DNA of 45,687 nt from an uncultured Acidobacteriia bacterium (GTDB lineage Bacteria; Acidobacteriota; Terriglobia; Bryobacterales; Bryobacteraceae): contig CAIYDY010000335.1 in NCBI GenBank assembly GCA_903925015.1, forward strand, positions 1-45,687, read 5' to 3'. Below, piece after piece: positions 5,439 through 45,687 of the stretch. The translations under genes were made by a program, and so were the position numbers. Below the pieces are notes generated by a model that was given only the letters and a program-made list of their open reading frames with translations, searched no databases and had not been told where the DNA came from. Position 1 is the first letter of the stretch; each line of letters opens with the position of its first letter.

Positions 5439-7622
5439 CTATTTACCGTAGCCCAGGCCAAAGCCAAAGACGTATTTGGCGCTCACGCGGTTTTTGTAGG
5501 CGTAGTCGAACGCTTCGGCGAACCCTGGAACGTCCGGAGCATTCTTGTCGACGGCCGCTTGATCCGCCGGTATCGTGAGAGGCAGTTTCCCGACCGGCGC
5601 AAAGCGGCCTCTCACCACGTCCAGCAGTCCCTCGGCCTTGACGTCGAACGTCGCCAGGACCGCCGCGGCACCGGGTTCCACTTCGTTGATGATCCAGGGA
5701 TTGATGAAATTGATCACCAATACCGTCGGCTTTGCCGCTTCGATCTGTTTCACCTTGGCGACGTCAACGCCCGTAAGGGGGCTCAGTGCGATGTCGGCAT
5801 AGTCGTGCTCGGGCCGCTGGTAGACGGTGGGGCGCAACCATACCAAGGCCACGTCGGCTTGGTCGAGCGAATCCACGACCTGTACGGTCGGGTCCTTCGC
5901 GAGCAGGGCCTTCAGGGCGGCGGTGCCATTGACCGAAGGGGGGGCACCCCGCCCGCCGAAGTCGCCACGGCCGCCCCTACCCTCCGGTCCGCCCCGACCC
6001 GCGGCTCCGCGGCCACCTGCTATGCCCCGGCCACCCGCTCCACCCCGGCCCACTGCCCCACCCCGGCCTTCTGCTCCGCCCCGACCTTCCGGCCCACCAC
6101 GCCCCCCAGCTCCACCCCTGCCCCCGAAGCTTGGGGGCTGACCGGCCATGACCTCCACGTACACCTTCCTGGCACCCGTCATCGGCAACAGTTTGCTGTC
6201 GTTGCGCAGCAGGACAACGGACTTGCGATGGGCTTCGTCGGCCCGCGCTGCGGAAACCGGTGAACTGGCGATCTTTTGAGCCGCTTCGGGGTCGGTGTAT
6301 GGGTTCTCGAAGAGCCCCAATTTGAAGATCTCCTTGAGCAGAAGTGTGACCTGCGGCGTAAGGTCGGATTCCTCCAGCAGGTGCTGGTGGACCGCGTCCA
6401 AGAGGCCCTGCGGACTATTGCTGTCGGAAAACAGGGCAACCCCGGCTTTCACCGCTTTCGCGAACCGCTCCGGCGTGGTGAGCTTTTCCACTCCGAAAGC
6501 GTTGGCGGTAAGCACACCGGTATCGGTATTGACGTAGCCCTTGAATCCCATCCGTCCACGAAGCAGTCGGGTGAGCAATGCCGTATTGTAGGCACCTGCC
6601 ACCTCTTCGAACTGCTTGGTGTCGGACTGCCACCATTCCTTGGGAAGCTGCTTCCCACTCCGCTCGTTGGATGGGTTGTTGTAGTAGCTCATGATCGAGC
6701 TCGCGCCGGCGTCGACGGCAGCCTGGAAAGGAGGCAACTGGTATTTGAAGAAGCTGCCGGGCGTCGGATATACGGCCCACTGCCCCCAATCGTTATGGGG
6801 ATCCAAGCCCTTGTCGACGGGCCCATCTCCTGGGAAATGCTTGATCGATTGCGCTACCGACTCCGGCCCAAGAGCGGGCCCTTGGAAGCCCAATACGATT
6901 TCGCGGGCGATCTCCGCGTTCCACTTCGGGCTTTCCCCAAACGTTGTTTGAATGCGGTACCAGCGCGGCTCGGTGGCCACGTCCACCTGATATCCGTAAC
7001 ACTTCTGGATCCCCGAGGCGCGCCATTCCGCCCGCGCGATTTCGGCGAACGAGCGGATCAGCTTGATGTCATTCGTCGCAGCCAGCCCCAGCGTCCCGGG
7101 CCAACTGGAGAACTCGCCAGCCGCTTCGGCTTCCTCGTACACCAAATTGTCGCGAACGTGGTTTCGTGGATTCGAGGCAAAGACAATCGGAATGCCCAGA
7201 CGCGACTTTTCGGCGAGTTCCTGTGAAGTGTTCGCGCGCGCCGCCAGTTCACGGGCGGTGAGGTTGTCGCGGAGGATGAAGTAGCGGATGTTGCGCTGGT
7301 TGAGATAGTCGTCCAAATTGCCTGCATTGAACGAAGTAATTTGCATCAGCCCCGCCTTCTCCTCAAGGGTCATTTTGGAGACCAGGTCCGCGACGCGCTT
7401 GTCGACCGGCAATCGCCAATCCTCGTAGGGGTCCAACACGCCGTTGCGGTTCAAATCCTTGAACGACAGGTCGCCGACCTTCAGCAAGGGGGCGGCCCGT
7501 CCGTCGATCTTCGGCTGTTTTGGCGCGGTAGGCGCGGCCGGCATCGACACCATCCAGAGTGCAAGGGACAGCACCAGAGCGATTGAAGCTGGCGTAAACG
7601 ATCTTCTGCGCGGCATGTTCAT
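5439..7622 (-). CDS. Glycoside hydrolase family 3 (beta-glucosidase-like), secreted
   Basis: The protein is about 727 residues from the ATG at 7622 (a second ATG at 7616); the frame is open much further upstream but that part overlaps IS debris and lacks protein-like sequence. A signal peptide (RRRSFTPASIALVLSLALW, then MVSMPAAPTA) directs export. The GH3 N-domain shows KMTLEEKAGLMQ, IKHFPGDGPVDKG and the nucleophile region GFKGYVNTDTGVL with the catalytic Asp. The C-domain starts at SVVLLRNDSKLLPM and ends in VFGFGLGYG. Family members release glucose or similar sugars from beta-linked saccharides. A Gly-Arg-rich repeat of about 60 residues is inserted at the start of the C-domain, which is unusual. 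The gene stands alone. The exact substrate cannot be read from sequence. Confidence 0.85.
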   Translation of the reverse strand: MNMPRRRSFTPASIALVLSLALWMVSMPAAPTAPKQPKIDGRAAPLLKVGDLSFKDLNRNGVLDPYEDWRLPVDKRVADLVSKMTLEEKAGLMQITSFNAGNLDDYLNQRNIRYFILRDNLTARELAARANTSQELAEKSRLGIPIVFASNPRNHVRDNLVYEEAEAAGEFSSWPGTLGLAATNDIKLIRSFAEIARAEWRASGIQKCYGYQVDVATEPRWYRIQTTFGESPKWNAEIAREIVLGFQGPALGPESVAQSIKHFPGDGPVDKGLDPHNDWGQWAVYPTPGSFFKYQLPPFQAAVDAGASSIMSYYNNPSNERSGKQLPKEWWQSDTKQFEEVAGAYNTALLTRLLRGRMGFKGYVNTDTGVLTANAFGVEKLTTPERFAKAVKAGVALFSDSNSPQGLLDAVHQHLLEESDLTPQVTLLLKEIFKLGLFENPYTDPEAAQKIASSPVSAARADEAHRKSVVLLRNDSKLLPMTGARKVYVEVMAGQPPSFGGRGGAGGRGGPEGRGGAEGRGGAVGRGGAGGRGIAGGRGAAGRGGPEGRGGRGDFGGRGAPPSVNGTAALKALLAKDPTVQVVDSLDQADVALVWLRPTVYQRPEHDYADIALSPLTGVDVAKVKQIEAAKPTVLVINFINPWIINEVEPGAAAVLATFDVKAEGLLDVVRGRFAPVGKLPLTIPADQAAVDKNAPDVPGFAEAFDYAYKNRVSAKYVFGFGLGYGK
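5941..6126 (-). repeat. Imperfect 18-bp tandem repeat encoding GRGGAx units
   Basis: Within the GH3 gene about ten imperfect units of six codons encode the patterns GRGGAG, GRGGPE, GRGGAE, GRGGAV and GRGIAG. The run starts after MAGQPPSFGG and ends at FGGRGAPPSVNG. On the opposite strand it yields a misleading proline-rich open frame. Such repeats expand and shrink by slippage. Confidence 0.8.
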
Positions 7623-7840
7623 TTGTCTTCGAATCGTTATGGTATCGCGGTTCCTTCCTGTTGTGTGGCAAAAAGGGGGTTCATCGACCGCGGCTCTGGA
7701 ATTCCGGGTGGATCGTCCGCCACCTGGAGAATGAGTGCAGCCCCGACGCGCTCCGGGGAAGTCCAGATATGGGAAGGGTACACCGACGGCGGGGCCTGAC
7801 TCCGGCATTTCCGAGATCGCTGTGGCAGGGGAGATTGCCC

Positions 7841-8167
7841 TCACCGAGGAGCGGCTGGCCATGTGTTGAAAGATTGCGCTTCTCCGTCCGGGAACTCTTC
7901 CTCCGGCAGGAAATCGCCGAGGACTGCCAGTCGAAGTTCATCGGCACATGGCTTGGAATGAGGTGGCCCTTGAGGTCGGTTGGACCGCTTCCGGCCTCCG
8001 CCGGTGAAGGCGCTCGCGCCGTGCTCCTCCAGCTCCCGGTGCCACGGGTACAGGTCGCTGGTGTCGAAATCCAATGACCTCGCCACCTCCGCCGCGCTCG
8101 TGCCCGGAGCCATTTGGCGGATCGCAGTCTCCTTCAACTCCTGGCTGAACTTCCTTCTTGTGCCCAT
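7841..8167 (-). pseudogene. IS3-family transposase OrfA, truncated
   Basis: Residues 4-57 of the 108-residue frame are a clear helix-turn-helix OrfA start: RRKFSQELKETAIRQM, then TSAAEVARSLDFDTSDLYPW and ELEEHGASAFTGGGRKR. After that the sequence no longer resembles OrfA (the usual leucine zipper is missing), so the fusion to unrelated sequence occurs near 7995. OrfA binds the IS ends and OrfB supplies the DDE integrase; no OrfB is present, so the element cannot move by itself. GGGGAAGGACC at about 8172-8182 could serve as ribosome site. Confidence 0.7.
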
Positions 8168-41164: not shown

Positions 41165-42353
41165 GGTTCCATCCTACCAATCGCTCGCAATCCAGTGCCT
41201 GCCAGGGACCAAAGCGTACACTGAGCTACCGCATGGGTATAAGTGGACCTAATCGCAAATGCCGGAAGCCCTATTGGTTGGTGTCGCTTCCGCCCGACCG
41301 GGGAACTCGGAACCTGAAGGATTTCTCTCCACCAATGCTGACCGGGCCAAGCCGCGTTCGCTTGTCCGTAGCCGCGCCCCCTGCGCGGGGTGTCTTTGAT
41401 AAGGGAAGCCAATCATGGTGAAGCTGTTCGACAGTCGCCATGAAACCTTGGGCATTCCTCCTGGTGGGGCAGTTCGATTCGGTCTTATATGAACATCAAT
41501 ACTCCGCTAGGACGGGAAAATTTTTGTCGTCGATGCGCTAAATATCTCTTTACATTTCTCAGTGTTTGTGGTGCAAATATAGGTTTGATTTTGCAGAACA
41601 CACACGAAGAACCTTCATGGCATTGGCTCCACTTGATGCCGTATCCATCTTGACGGCATAGTTTGATCGTCTGTAGAAGTCGAAATTCCAGCCGAACGCC
41701 AACATCTCGGTTTCGAATGCGGCAATTTTGGCGGCAAGGGATTTCCGTCAAGCCGCTGAGTCGGGACGGTTGAAATGACAGTTGCTGCCGCAGGAGGGGG
41801 ACTCGGTGCGGCTATAAGTCCATGCGGCCGAGTCTGCGACGGTCGCGGCTGCAGTTGGTGCGACTGGTGTGGCAATCTTGGCTGGTGCTGGAGTGGCCGC
41901 TGCGGCGATTGGCTTTGGTTTCTTCATTGCCGGGGTGGCCAACGCACTGCAAATAGGTCGGGGCCGAGCACGGAGAACAGTATGCTTCAAATTTGGTATG
42001 CGGCTGGCATGAGCGCCTTGGCACTCTGTGCATGCTGGGAGCCATCTTGCTAGCGGTGCAGGTTCCTTTGGGGTGGCCGCAGATCGCAATGATCTTGGCG
42101 GGCGCGGGCATGATCAAAGTCATGCGAGACAGACGCCGGAATTTCCACGGAGGTTCATTCATGGTCATCGCCTCCGATGCAATTTGGTGGCGATGCTACT
42201 TTATTGCGCTTGCCAGTCTTCCAGTGGTCTCCTTTTGCGGGGTCGCCGCGATCCGAACCATCCAAGCGAGGCATCGGCGTTCAGCATCCGTTCCGGCGTG
42301 CCGCCCAGCCACCAAGGCCTCATTGGAGCAGCCGATTCGTTAATCTTAAAGAA
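41165..42353. other. 1.2 kb without an intact gene
   Basis: No open frame here has convincing family features. The base composition falls around 41500-41620. Fragments that look protein-like but are broken: on the minus strand around 41575-41735 a frame with KIAAFETEMLAFGWNFDFYR; on the plus strand near 41775-41960 a Gly/Ala-rich hydrophobic stretch (MTVAAAGGGLGAAISP, then after a frameshift GATGVAILAGAGVAAAAIGF); and near 41981-42130 MLQIWYAAGMSALALCA continuing, after another frameshift, as AILLAVQVPLGWPQIAMILA. These look like decayed small membrane-protein genes. No repeat or RNA gene was seen. Confidence 0.4.
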
Positions 42354-44198
42354 GTGATCGAAAAGATTCTTCTTGCGCTGCTCATGGTAGTCTCCGGCGG
42401 AGGCTTCTGGTACCGGTTCCGCCGCGTCGCAAACATCATTGCGGCCGCCAAGCCGGATTCCGAATTCCGCATCGGCTCCTTGGCACCCCGTGTTCGGACG
42501 TTCGTATGGGAAGTGCTCTGCCAAGGCAAGGTGATCGAGCAGCGCCCCGTGGCCGGTGCCGCGCACGCCCTCGTATTCTGGGGCTTCCTCGCGTTCGGCC
42601 TGATCACTCTCAACCACTTCGCGCTCGGTTTCGGCTTCCCGTTCCTGTCGCCCAACGGCACCTTCGGCAAGGCCTACTTTGGGCTCGCCGCAATTTTCGC
42701 GATTGCCGTCGCCGTCTCAATCTCCTTCCTGGCCTTCCGCCGATTTGTTCTCAAGCCGGTCTGGCTGGGTGCAAAAGTTTCAGTCGAATCGGGTTTTATC
42801 GCCTGCCTGATCCTGACATTGATGCTGACTTACCTTGCCAGCCTTGCGATTCCCGAAACCACCTTGGCCGGACACGGCATCTGGTGGCTGCACACTTTGG
42901 CACTGTTGATCTTCCTCCCGCTGGTACCGCACACCAAGCACTTGCACTTGGTCCTGAGCCCGCTCACAGTGTTTCTGAAGCGGGACGGTTTCTCCCCCAT
43001 CGCCAAACTGAACGGCGACGAGGATTTCGGGATTGTCGGCACCAAGGATCTCGACCAGATTGCCGCCCTCCAGGCGTTTTCCTGCGTCGAATGCGGTCGG
43101 TGCACGGAACACTGTCCCGCCGCCAACACCGGCAAACTGTTGAATCCGAAGGAAATTATTCTTGGACTGCGGACGGCGTTCAACGAACTGGGCACGGCGT
43201 CGGAAGCGCCGCTCCTCGGCGCGCAGATCTCCGAGGAAGCTGTCTTCCAGTGCACCACCTGCGGGGCGTGCGAATTCCAGTGCCCTGTAGGCATCCAGCA
43301 CCTTCCGCTGATCGTGGGGCTGCGCCGCGGTGCCGTCAATACTGGTGCATGGGAGGACAAATTCGGCACCAAACTGTTCCTCGCCATGGAGAAGAACGGC
43401 AACTCCCTCGGCATGGCGGGCAGCGAGCGCCAGAAATTCATCACAAAGAGCGCCTTGCCGATCTACGACGGTACCCAGGAATACGTCCTTTGGCTGGGCT
43501 GCATGGGGGCCTACGACCCAGCCGGACGCGAGACCATTCTCGCGCTTGTGAAGGTGCTCCGCTATTTGGACATCACCTTCGGCGTCCTGAAGAAGGAAAA
43601 GTGCAACGGAGACCCGGCACGGCGTCTGGGCAACGATCTTCTATTCGCAAACCTCGCCGAGGACAACCTCAAGAACATCCCCGAAAAGGTCAAGATGCTC
43701 TCGATCTGCCCGCACTGCGTCCGCACCATGTCCACAGACTGGCGCGAGGTGGGCCGGACCGTCGAAATCGAGCACCATTCGGAACTCCTGGCCCGACACC
43801 GGACCCGTCTGCCGATTCTGGAACAGGACCGACGCGAAACGGTTGTTTACCACGATCCCTGCTATCTGGGCCGCTACCGGGGTGTCTACGAGGAACCGCG
43901 CGAAGTGCTTTCGCGGGCCGTCGATCTATTGGAAGCTCCGAAGAACCGCGAACGCTCGTTCTGCTGCGGCGCGGGCGGCGGCCAGATGTTCTTGGGCGAG
44001 GAAAAGGGCGAACGCGTCAACATCACGCGCGCCCGGGAACTTGTCGCGACCGGTGCCGACACCGTGGCGGCCGGGTGTCCGTTCTGCGCGTCGATGTTCC
44101 GGGACGCTTTGAAATCGGTGTCCGACAATCCGCCCAAGCTAATGGATCTGGTGCAGATCGCAGCACGGAGCTTGCCCGACCAGCCCTTCTCAAATTGA
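42354..44198 (+). CDS. Membrane-bound Fe-S oxidoreductase (heterodisulfide-reductase-like, CCG domains)
   Basis: About 614 residues from a GTG at 42354; the frame is open upstream but without homologous sequence. About six membrane helices in the first 210 residues (a NarI/DsrM-like cytochrome b part: AGAAHALVFWGFLAFGLITL, HTLALLIFLPLVPHTKHLHL with His ligands) are followed by two 4Fe-4S sites, CVECGRCTEHCP (from 244) and CTTCGACEFQCP (from 300). Two cysteine-rich CCG domains follow: LGCMGAYDP, SICPHC, HDPCYLGRYRGVYEEPREVL, FCCGAGGGQMFL, GCPFCASMF. It should pass electrons between a membrane quinone and a soluble partner, as in GlpC- and HdrD-like proteins. It ends 60 bases before the ABC-F leader. 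Confidence 0.85.
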   Translation: MIEKILLALLMVVSGGGFWYRFRRVANIIAAAKPDSEFRIGSLAPRVRTFVWEVLCQGKVIEQRPVAGAAHALVFWGFLAFGLITLNHFALGFGFPFLSPNGTFGKAYFGLAAIFAIAVAVSISFLAFRRFVLKPVWLGAKVSVESGFIACLILTLMLTYLASLAIPETTLAGHGIWWLHTLALLIFLPLVPHTKHLHLVLSPLTVFLKRDGFSPIAKLNGDEDFGIVGTKDLDQIAALQAFSCVECGRCTEHCPAANTGKLLNPKEIILGLRTAFNELGTASEAPLLGAQISEEAVFQCTTCGACEFQCPVGIQHLPLIVGLRRGAVNTGAWEDKFGTKLFLAMEKNGNSLGMAGSERQKFITKSALPIYDGTQEYVLWLGCMGAYDPAGRETILALVKVLRYLDITFGVLKKEKCNGDPARRLGNDLLFANLAEDNLKNIPEKVKMLSICPHCVRTMSTDWREVGRTVEIEHHSELLARHRTRLPILEQDRRETVVYHDPCYLGRYRGVYEEPREVLSRAVDLLEAPKNRERSFCCGAGGGQMFLGEEKGERVNITRARELVATGADTVAAGCPFCASMFRDALKSVSDNPPKLMDLVQIAARSLPDQPFSN

Positions 44199-44253
44199 TG
44201 GAGGGCGGTTTCCAGGTACGGTGATGCGGGACAATAGGAGTTACACCCTAGAT

Positions 44254-44281
44254 CTGGCATGATTCAACTGGCATGATTCAA
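44254..44281 (+). repeat. 14-bp tandem duplication carrying the start codon
   Basis: CTGGCATGATTCAA occurs twice in direct succession (44254-44267 and 44268-44281). The first copy gives a five-codon frame M-I-Q-L-A ending in TGA at 44274-44276, which overlaps the ATG of the ABC-F gene at 44273 (ATGA). It may be a translated leader or a harmless slippage event. Confidence 0.8.
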
Positions 44282-45687
44282 CTCACAGAGGCCGGCAAGC
44301 GCTTCGGCCCCAAAATTCTGTTTTCCGAGTGCAACTGGCTCATCGGCCCCCGCGATCACTTCGGCATCGTCGGCGGCAACGGCACCGGCAAGTCCACGCT
44401 TCTGAAGGTTCTGGCGGGTATCGAATCGCTCGATTACGGCTCCGTCAATTCCACCAAGGGCATCAAGGCCGGTTACCTTCCGCAGGACGGCATCAACCTC
44501 ACAGGCCGGTCTGTCTTTGCTGAGTGCATGTCGGTATTCGACGATGTCCGGGCCATGGAGGCCGAGCAGAAGGAACTCGAGCACCAGATGGGGGAGCTGG
44601 ACCACGAGAGCCCGGAATACAACAAGGTTTCCGAGCGCTACCACCAGGTCCACGATGAATTTACCGCCCGCGACGGCTACAACATCGAGTCGAAGGTGGG
44701 AATTGTGCTCACTGGCCTCGGTTTCTCGCGCGAGGACTGGGCCAAGCGCGTCGAAGCCTTCTCCGGCGGCTGGCAGATGCGCATTGCGCTGGCGAAGCTC
44801 CTGCTTCAGGAGCCGAATCTGCTGCTACTGGACGAGCCCACCAACCACTTGGACATCGAAGCCCGCGACTGGCTGGAATCCTACCTCCACAATTACCCCA
44901 ACGCCTTCATTCTGATCTCCCACGACCGCTACTTTCTCGATGTGACCGTGGAGCGGGTTGCCGAAATCTGGAACAAGCGCATCCACTTCTATTCCGGCGG
45001 CTACACCAAGTACGAAAACTCGAAAATGGAGCGGCGGACCCAGCTTGAAGCTGCCTACAAGAACCAGCGCGAGCGGATCGAGGATCTGGAATCCTTCATC
45101 AACCGCTTCCGCGCCCAGGCGACCAAGGCCAAACAGGTTCAGAGCCGCATCAAGGAACTGGAGAAGATCGAGCGTATCGAGATCCCGCCCGACGAAAAGA
45201 CAATCTACTTCCGCTTCCCGCAGCCCAAGCCGTCCGGACGCATCGTAGCCGAGTTCAACAATGTCTCGAAAGCGTACGGCGAGAAGGTCGTTTTCAAGGG
45301 TGCCACGTTCAATATCGAACGCGGTGACCGGATTGCGCTGGTCGGCGTCAACGGTGCCGGCAAATCGACACTGATCAAACTGCTCTCCGGCGAGGAACCG
45401 CTTACGACCGGCGAATACAAGCTGGGGCACAACGTCGAGGTCGATTATTTCGCGCAGGACCAGTACAAGGTCCTTGATGTCGAGGCAGCCATCTTCGACG
45501 ACCTTGGACGTGTTTCCCCCCGATCCGGCCAGACCGAGCTGCGCAACATCCTCGGGTGCTTCCTCTTCTCCGAGGACGATGTCTTCAAGAAGATCGGCGT
45601 CCTTTCCGGCGGCGAGCGCAACCGTTACGCCTTGGCGCGCATGTTGATGCAGCCCAGCAATTTTCTCTTGCTGGACGAACCCACCAA
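44273..45687 (+). CDS. ABC-F family ATPase, partial (right edge)
   Basis: At least 471 residues; the end lies outside the window. Two ATPase domains are joined by the basic linker typical of ABC-F. Domain 1: GGNGTGKST, signature EAFSGGWQMRIALAKLLL, LLLLDEPTNHLDIEARDWLE, ISHDRYFLD. The linker contains NQRERIEDLESFINRFRAQ and ATKAKQVQSRIKELEKIERI, the P-site tRNA interaction motif. Domain 2: GVNGAGKST, VLSGGERNRYALARMLM and a second LLLDEPT cut by the edge. ABC-F proteins act on ribosomes, not in membranes. This resembles the Uup/YbiT/EttA class rather than resistance types. The start ATG lies in a 14-bp duplication. Confidence 0.9.
   Translation, partial: MIQLTEAGKRFGPKILFSECNWLIGPRDHFGIVGGNGTGKSTLLKVLAGIESLDYGSVNSTKGIKAGYLPQDGINLTGRSVFAECMSVFDDVRAMEAEQKELEHQMGELDHESPEYNKVSERYHQVHDEFTARDGYNIESKVGIVLTGLGFSREDWAKRVEAFSGGWQMRIALAKLLLQEPNLLLLDEPTNHLDIEARDWLESYLHNYPNAFILISHDRYFLDVTVERVAEIWNKRIHFYSGGYTKYENSKMERRTQLEAAYKNQRERIEDLESFINRFRAQATKAKQVQSRIKELEKIERIEIPPDEKTIYFRFPQPKPSGRIVAEFNNVSKAYGEKVVFKGATFNIERGDRIALVGVNGAGKSTLIKLLSGEEPLTTGEYKLGHNVEVDYFAQDQYKVLDVEAAIFDDLGRVSPRSGQTELRNILGCFLFSEDDVFKKIGVLSGGERNRYALARMLMQPSNFLLLDEPT

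Follow-up and report, generated by a model that had tools for sequence, protein, structure and literature searches.

The mycobacterial interspersed repetitive units (MIRUs), reportedly described by Supply et al. in 1997, have a unit longer than 14 bp. According to the available portion of PMC12548453, the insertion of these short repeats at a start codon couples their own open reading frame (ORF) to the gene at a spacing of -4 nt, so the gene is probably little affected; the repeats are apparently mobile and occur in many mycobacteria. In E. coli, iraD is coupled to a short upstream ORF (uORF), through which CsrA represses the gene (PMC5574718, in the portion available). A third system, taken from the accessible text of PMC10314930, is msrDL (MYLIFM), the leader of msrD, on which macrolide-dependent stalling relieves an intrinsic terminator. 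A literature search by title, with partial coverage, found no case of a tandem repeat or duplication at a bacterial start codon with re-initiation or coupling.

We analyzed the start of an ABC-F gene at the end of the window, the whole stretch of 45,687 nucleotides. Two identical 14-bp units, CTGGCATGATTCAA, were found head to tail at 44254-44281. The features of the locus are as follows.

42177 to 44198, plus strand: upstream gene for a protein with iron-sulfur/cysteine-rich domains (domain and profile searches), given as context and lying outside the feature.
44254 to 44267, plus strand: unit 1, CTGGCATGATTCAA (sequence, mismatch count, and tandem-repeat scan).
44268 to 44281, plus strand: unit 2, identical to unit 1 and containing the main start codon (same evidence).
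44259 to 44276, plus strand: five-codon mini-ORF, M-I-Q-L-A-stop (read from the sequence and also recovered by script).
44273 to 45687, plus strand: ABC-F ATPase gene, 471 codons up to the window end (domain and profile searches; its start aligns with that of the homologues).

The first ATG (44259-44261) is followed by the codons ATT, CAA, CTG, and GCA and by a TGA at 44274-44276, which overlaps the main ATG (44273-44275) as ATGA (44273-44276). A stop and start that overlap or lie within a few bases, as termination-reinitiation coupling requires, are thus present, and coupling at this ATGA is likely from the geometry. The periodicity extends by two bases (CT) beyond unit 2 to 44283 (repeat score 60, 100% match). 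The preliminary description had claimed a head-to-tail repeat at the gene start and an M-I-Q-L-A leader whose TGA lies over the main ATG, and the sequence bore out both; its interval of 44254-44290 covers the feature, although the repeat proper stops at 44283.

By analogy, MIRUs are the nearest parallel to this array. As described for MIRUs in the available portion of PMC12548453, an ORF within the unit overlaps the next start with a spacing of -4 nt. Unlike MIRUs, however, the 14-bp unit occupies a single genomic place in the two genomes that carry it and is not interspersed, and it is derived from the start of the gene itself. The array resembles iraD in having a short ORF upstream, with coupling to uORF translation reported there (PMC5574718, portion available) and putative here; in contrast to the CsrA-controlled uORF of iraD (same portion), the uORF of the array copies the start of its own gene. 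With msrD, the locus shares a tiny leader ORF ahead of an ABC-F gene. However, msrDL, as presented in the accessible text of PMC10314930, stalls in a drug-dependent manner and has its own ribosome binding site and an intrinsic terminator that separates it from the gene, neither of which was seen here.

We next asked how unusual the repeat is. With at most one mismatch allowed, the 14-mer matched twice in the window against 0.02 expected, and two matches were obtained in none of 100 shuffles, excluding a chance origin of the repeat. In the whole genomes, at the same stringency, there were two matches in the window's genome (G000) and four in that of a sister species (G013), all at the ABC-F start. 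A dispersed or mobile repeat was rejected because the unit is confined to this one place in both. Perfect tandem repeats with a period of at least 10 were rare: six in 255,850 readable bases of G000, window included, and three in 158,285 readable bases of G013, ABC-F locus included, both samples being hand-picked, non-random contigs. All five G000 repeats other than the 14-bp array lay within long open frames, and four of them had a period divisible by three. Among the nine repeats of both samples, six had a period divisible by three, two were the 14-bp array, and one had a period of 10 inside an open frame. A background scan of 164 records, which total 1,010,543 bases with some redundancy, counted 156 distinct repeats over both strands and gave seven rows. 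Two were the array itself (L064 and the plus strand of L001), and one was its antisense reading (minus strand of L001); the other four (L066, L137, L016, and L033) were rejected as stop-start chains. Elsewhere in the window, at 5971-6125, we observed a C-rich cluster of imperfect 18/36/54-base repeats inside an 807-codon minus-strand frame (5439-7862).

The arrangement suggests how such an array could arise and be tolerated. Replication slippage most likely produced the duplication, which would have copied the last five bases of the 5' leader together with the nine bases that open the coding region of the ABC-F gene. Each unit is expected to close itself, with its TGA falling across the next ATG, so that any number of units would leave the protein intact. 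Two features would let the array grow in this way with no change in the protein: the start sequence ATGATT and the unit length of 14, which is 2 modulo 3. Each extra unit would add one five-codon ORF joined by the four-base ATGA overlap. A period of 0 modulo 3 could add residues to the front of the protein, and one of 1 modulo 3 would run a false frame into the gene. The harmless phase of the array may reflect either luck (one in three) or selection. As a rule, a tandem duplication of an ATGA start with a length of 2 modulo 3 would be automatically protein-safe, every unit closing itself and passing the ribosome on; if such events are common, they would be an overlooked route of uORF birth and translation adjustment.

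We then compared the locus in relatives. Every one of the 19 genus genomes carries the ABC-F gene, and a wider genome set gave a match in 40 of 41, the exception (G023) being 84% complete. At the gene start, two units were present in G000 and four in G013, and the other 17 of the 19 genus genomes had a single start. In G013, three successive MIQLA mini-ORFs precede the gene, every stop lying over the next start, and all six units of the two genomes are identical. The iron-sulfur/cysteine-rich-domain gene likewise lies 5' of the array in G013 (locus L064; 92.6% identity). The DNA of G013 is 95% identical to that of G000 in the stretch searched, and the proteins are 99% identical, with 46 differences in 1,413 coding bases. 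In a third genome, G015 (86% identical in the stretch searched), the single start is preceded by CTGGC, as in G000. It was the only one of the 17 single-start genomes with CTGGC before the ATG, and the remaining 16 were without the repeat. Among 98 distinct homologous starts, pooled from several homologue searches of which one took the best 80 of 577 relatives, a start-spanning tandem repeat was present in G000 and G013 only; two others had repeats of 5 and 6 bases upstream. Furthermore, 257 genomes of the order were scanned for a doubled MIQL start; the pattern required MIQL-type starts separated by no more than 25 bases, and other kinds of doubled start would escape it. The scan gave eight matches: two at the ABC-F gene (G000 and G013) and six at a different gene, a short one.

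Since 17 of 19 genus genomes have one start, G000 two units, and G013 four, and the ABC-F doubling occurs in two of 257 genomes of the order, the array is best read as a young, number-variable tandem repeat and not as a conserved ABC-F leader. One half of the refuting condition in the preliminary description, that only this strain has the duplication, is contradicted by the four copies of the sister species, but the comparison in relatives that it proposed gave no conserved leader.

The duplication probably predates the split of the window's species from its sister. The two copies of G000 and the four of G013 are compatible with a change in either direction. Between these two genomes, 22 of 225 fourfold sites of the ABC-F gene differ. 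None of the 56 sites of the leader and two units differ, which would occur with a chance of about 0.003 at the fourfold rate, although this figure is weakened because the units may homogenize each other; for the 28-base leader alone, the chance of zero differences is about 0.06 (6%). The absence of differences at 56 sites would fit constraint on the promoter and start.

To place the start within its transcript, we examined signals upstream of the homologous starts. Shine-Dalgarno matches of at least 4 bases at -18 to -5 were found at 13 of the 98 starts against about 19 expected from shuffles, and matches of at least 5 bases at six against about 4.5 expected. By contrast, 66 hexamers resembling a -10 box and ending at most 30 nt from the ATG were found in 97 homologous starts, against about 25 expected. 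Shine-Dalgarno sequences are thus not enriched at the homologous starts but -10-like boxes are, which makes a short leader probable and the first ATG a likely place for the ribosome to land. As a control, with a crude choice of starts, 138 long frames opening with ATG in the G000 sample gave 48 Shine-Dalgarno matches against 31.5 expected and 21 -10-like boxes within 10 nt against 12.2. For 87 G013 frames, with the same crude choice, the values were 25 against 20.2 and 12 against 8.3, respectively. Leaderless genes were found in three of three Acidobacteria genomes, at a mean of 13.3% (9.7 to 19.4%), in the available part of PMC3160421. Two features were placed upstream of the array.

44230 to 44235, plus strand: GACAAT, putative -10 box within GCGGGACAAT (44226-44235), kept in the sisters.
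44242 to 44258, plus strand: predicted short mRNA leader of about 17 nt, without a Shine-Dalgarno sequence at normal spacing, placed from the putative -10 box.

A spacing of 23 nt separates the end of GACAAT from the first ATG, more than in many homologues and beyond the upstream limit of 20 bp applied to bacteria in PMC3160421 (available part). At best, the ABC-F gene would have a short leader rather than being leaderless. A search of 43900-44500 for a sigma-70 promoter (9-of-12) found none; with no complete match, the evidence for the short leader is the excess among homologues and the kept 10-mer. Taking GACAAT as the -10 box would place the main ATG about 31 nt from the transcript start in G000, 59 nt in G013, and 16 nt in G015.

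GCGGGACAAT precedes the gene in 13 of the 19 genus genomes. In seven of these 13, it belongs to the final part of a long upstream frame whose tail is AGQWQYWL, and in G011, a long frame passes through it with a different tail. The AGQWQYWL-type frame is absent in G000, G013, G015, G007, and G017, though GCGGGACAAT is kept, the first three being close kin. The other six genomes of the genus are without GCGGGACAAT, four of them having TATAAT instead. Because it is retained where the upstream reading frame is not, GCGGGACAAT is suggested to be a promoter element, perhaps outliving its host gene.

Two other elements upstream of the array were rejected. AGGAG (44236-44240) was discarded as a Shine-Dalgarno sequence: it lies 18 nt from the first ATG, a distance that transcription from further upstream would leave unchanged while bringing AGGAG into the mRNA; it reads AGGGG in G015 and, apart from G013, is not kept at that place in other genus members. 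A twelve-codon ORF, MRDNRSYTLDLA (44224-44262), was also set aside, its ATG (44224) lying upstream of the predicted transcript start and its frame differing in G015. The TGA of this ORF overlaps the first ATG in both G000 and G013, so that three frames overlap in succession in G000.

Taken together, we consider a young, tolerated duplication of the start with translation coupling to be the probable explanation of the array. On a short leader that lacks a Shine-Dalgarno sequence, the ribosome would probably start at the first ATG, make MIQLA, terminate, and re-initiate at the overlapping main ATG. Some ribosomes may land directly on the second ATG, since the near context of the two is identical. 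The net effect would probably be a modest shift in ABC-F output and no drug-sensing switch. Slippage, where the promoter lies, initiation at the first ATG, re-initiation, and the size of the effect are all inferred from the DNA; the repeat, its phase, its copy numbers, and its distribution are direct observations in the genomes examined.

A purely neutral duplication, in which the first ATG is hardly used, the second is the start, and the extra unit merely gives a leader longer by 14 nt, is the strongest competitor, though an unlikely one. The presence of the array in only two of 19 genus genomes is consistent with it, as is the near context, which is the same for both copies. Folding of the two- and four-copy leaders was also ordinary (z of -0.11 and 0.73, respectively); these leaders folded no better than shuffles, and an RNA hairpin formed by the repeat was therefore rejected. 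However, with a short leader and no Shine-Dalgarno sequence, the 5'-proximal ATG should be favored, and relative to the putative -10 box, the first ATG is placed like the single start of G015 (23 against 22 nt). Both points argue against a purely neutral duplication.

A stronger form of the coupled reading, with which its odds overlap, is that the unit number, varying by slippage, governs the number of termination-reinitiation steps before the ABC-F gene, every added mini-ORF lowering or altering ABC-F translation through one further re-initiation, as a frame-safe rheostat. The occurrence of one, two, and four copies in three close relatives and a phase that permits the array to change in length without changing the protein would suit such a device, but an array found in two genomes only speaks against it, and we regard it as improbable. 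These natural alleles would offer a ready series for measuring re-initiation efficiency per step.

A regulatory stalling leader, as in msrD and other resistance ABC-F genes, would also place an ABC-F gene behind a tiny ORF. The preliminary description had preferred coupling or re-initiation to stalling control because of the shortness of the leader. This reason is weak, the msrD stalling leader MYLIFM having just six codons (PMC10314930, accessible text), but the preference itself stood, coupling or re-initiation being better supported than stalling. No terminator-like site was found in 43900-44500 and no RNA family match in 44000-44500, the leader overlaps the gene start and leaves no spacer for alternative hairpins, and it is not conserved in the genus.

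The protein likewise does not point to resistance. Its membership in the ABC-F family was supported by PF00005 in two stretches and by PF12848 (ABC_tran_Xtn linker) at 231-314, and its best solved relative was YheS (E 2.1e-100), which is not a resistance factor. For the partial protein of 471 residues, the resistance models scored below their cut-offs (OptrA, 284.6 against 1450; Vga, 240.5 against 725; Msr, 234.7 against 680), as did the ribosomal protection-like ABC-F model (363.9 against 380) and the model of YheS itself (355.8 against 917). None of the best 25 of 194 matched models reached its curated cut-off, YheS's included, because the protein is partial or lies apart. A second ABC-F frame, 42% identical, is present in the same genome (contig C37). 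Drug-sensing attenuation is disfavored because the scanned intervals gave no terminator-like site and no RNA family match and because there is no spacer between leader and gene and no conservation, and a stalling leader is very improbable.

The six further genomes with a doubled start in the order were rejected as cases of the same kind, their gene encoding a short protein and not an ABC-F protein. They belong to another genus of the same family (L156-L161, ~1500 of the match strand), and the short gene, beginning MIQLTERAT and presumably iron-sulfur-carrier-like, follows a conserved TGGACCAAAATGATCCAATTG. This element holds an imperfect TGGA/TCCA palindrome, possibly an operator. In five of the six, a 12-codon ORF ends over the ATG of the MIQLTERAT gene, and in L159, the frame continues into the gene.
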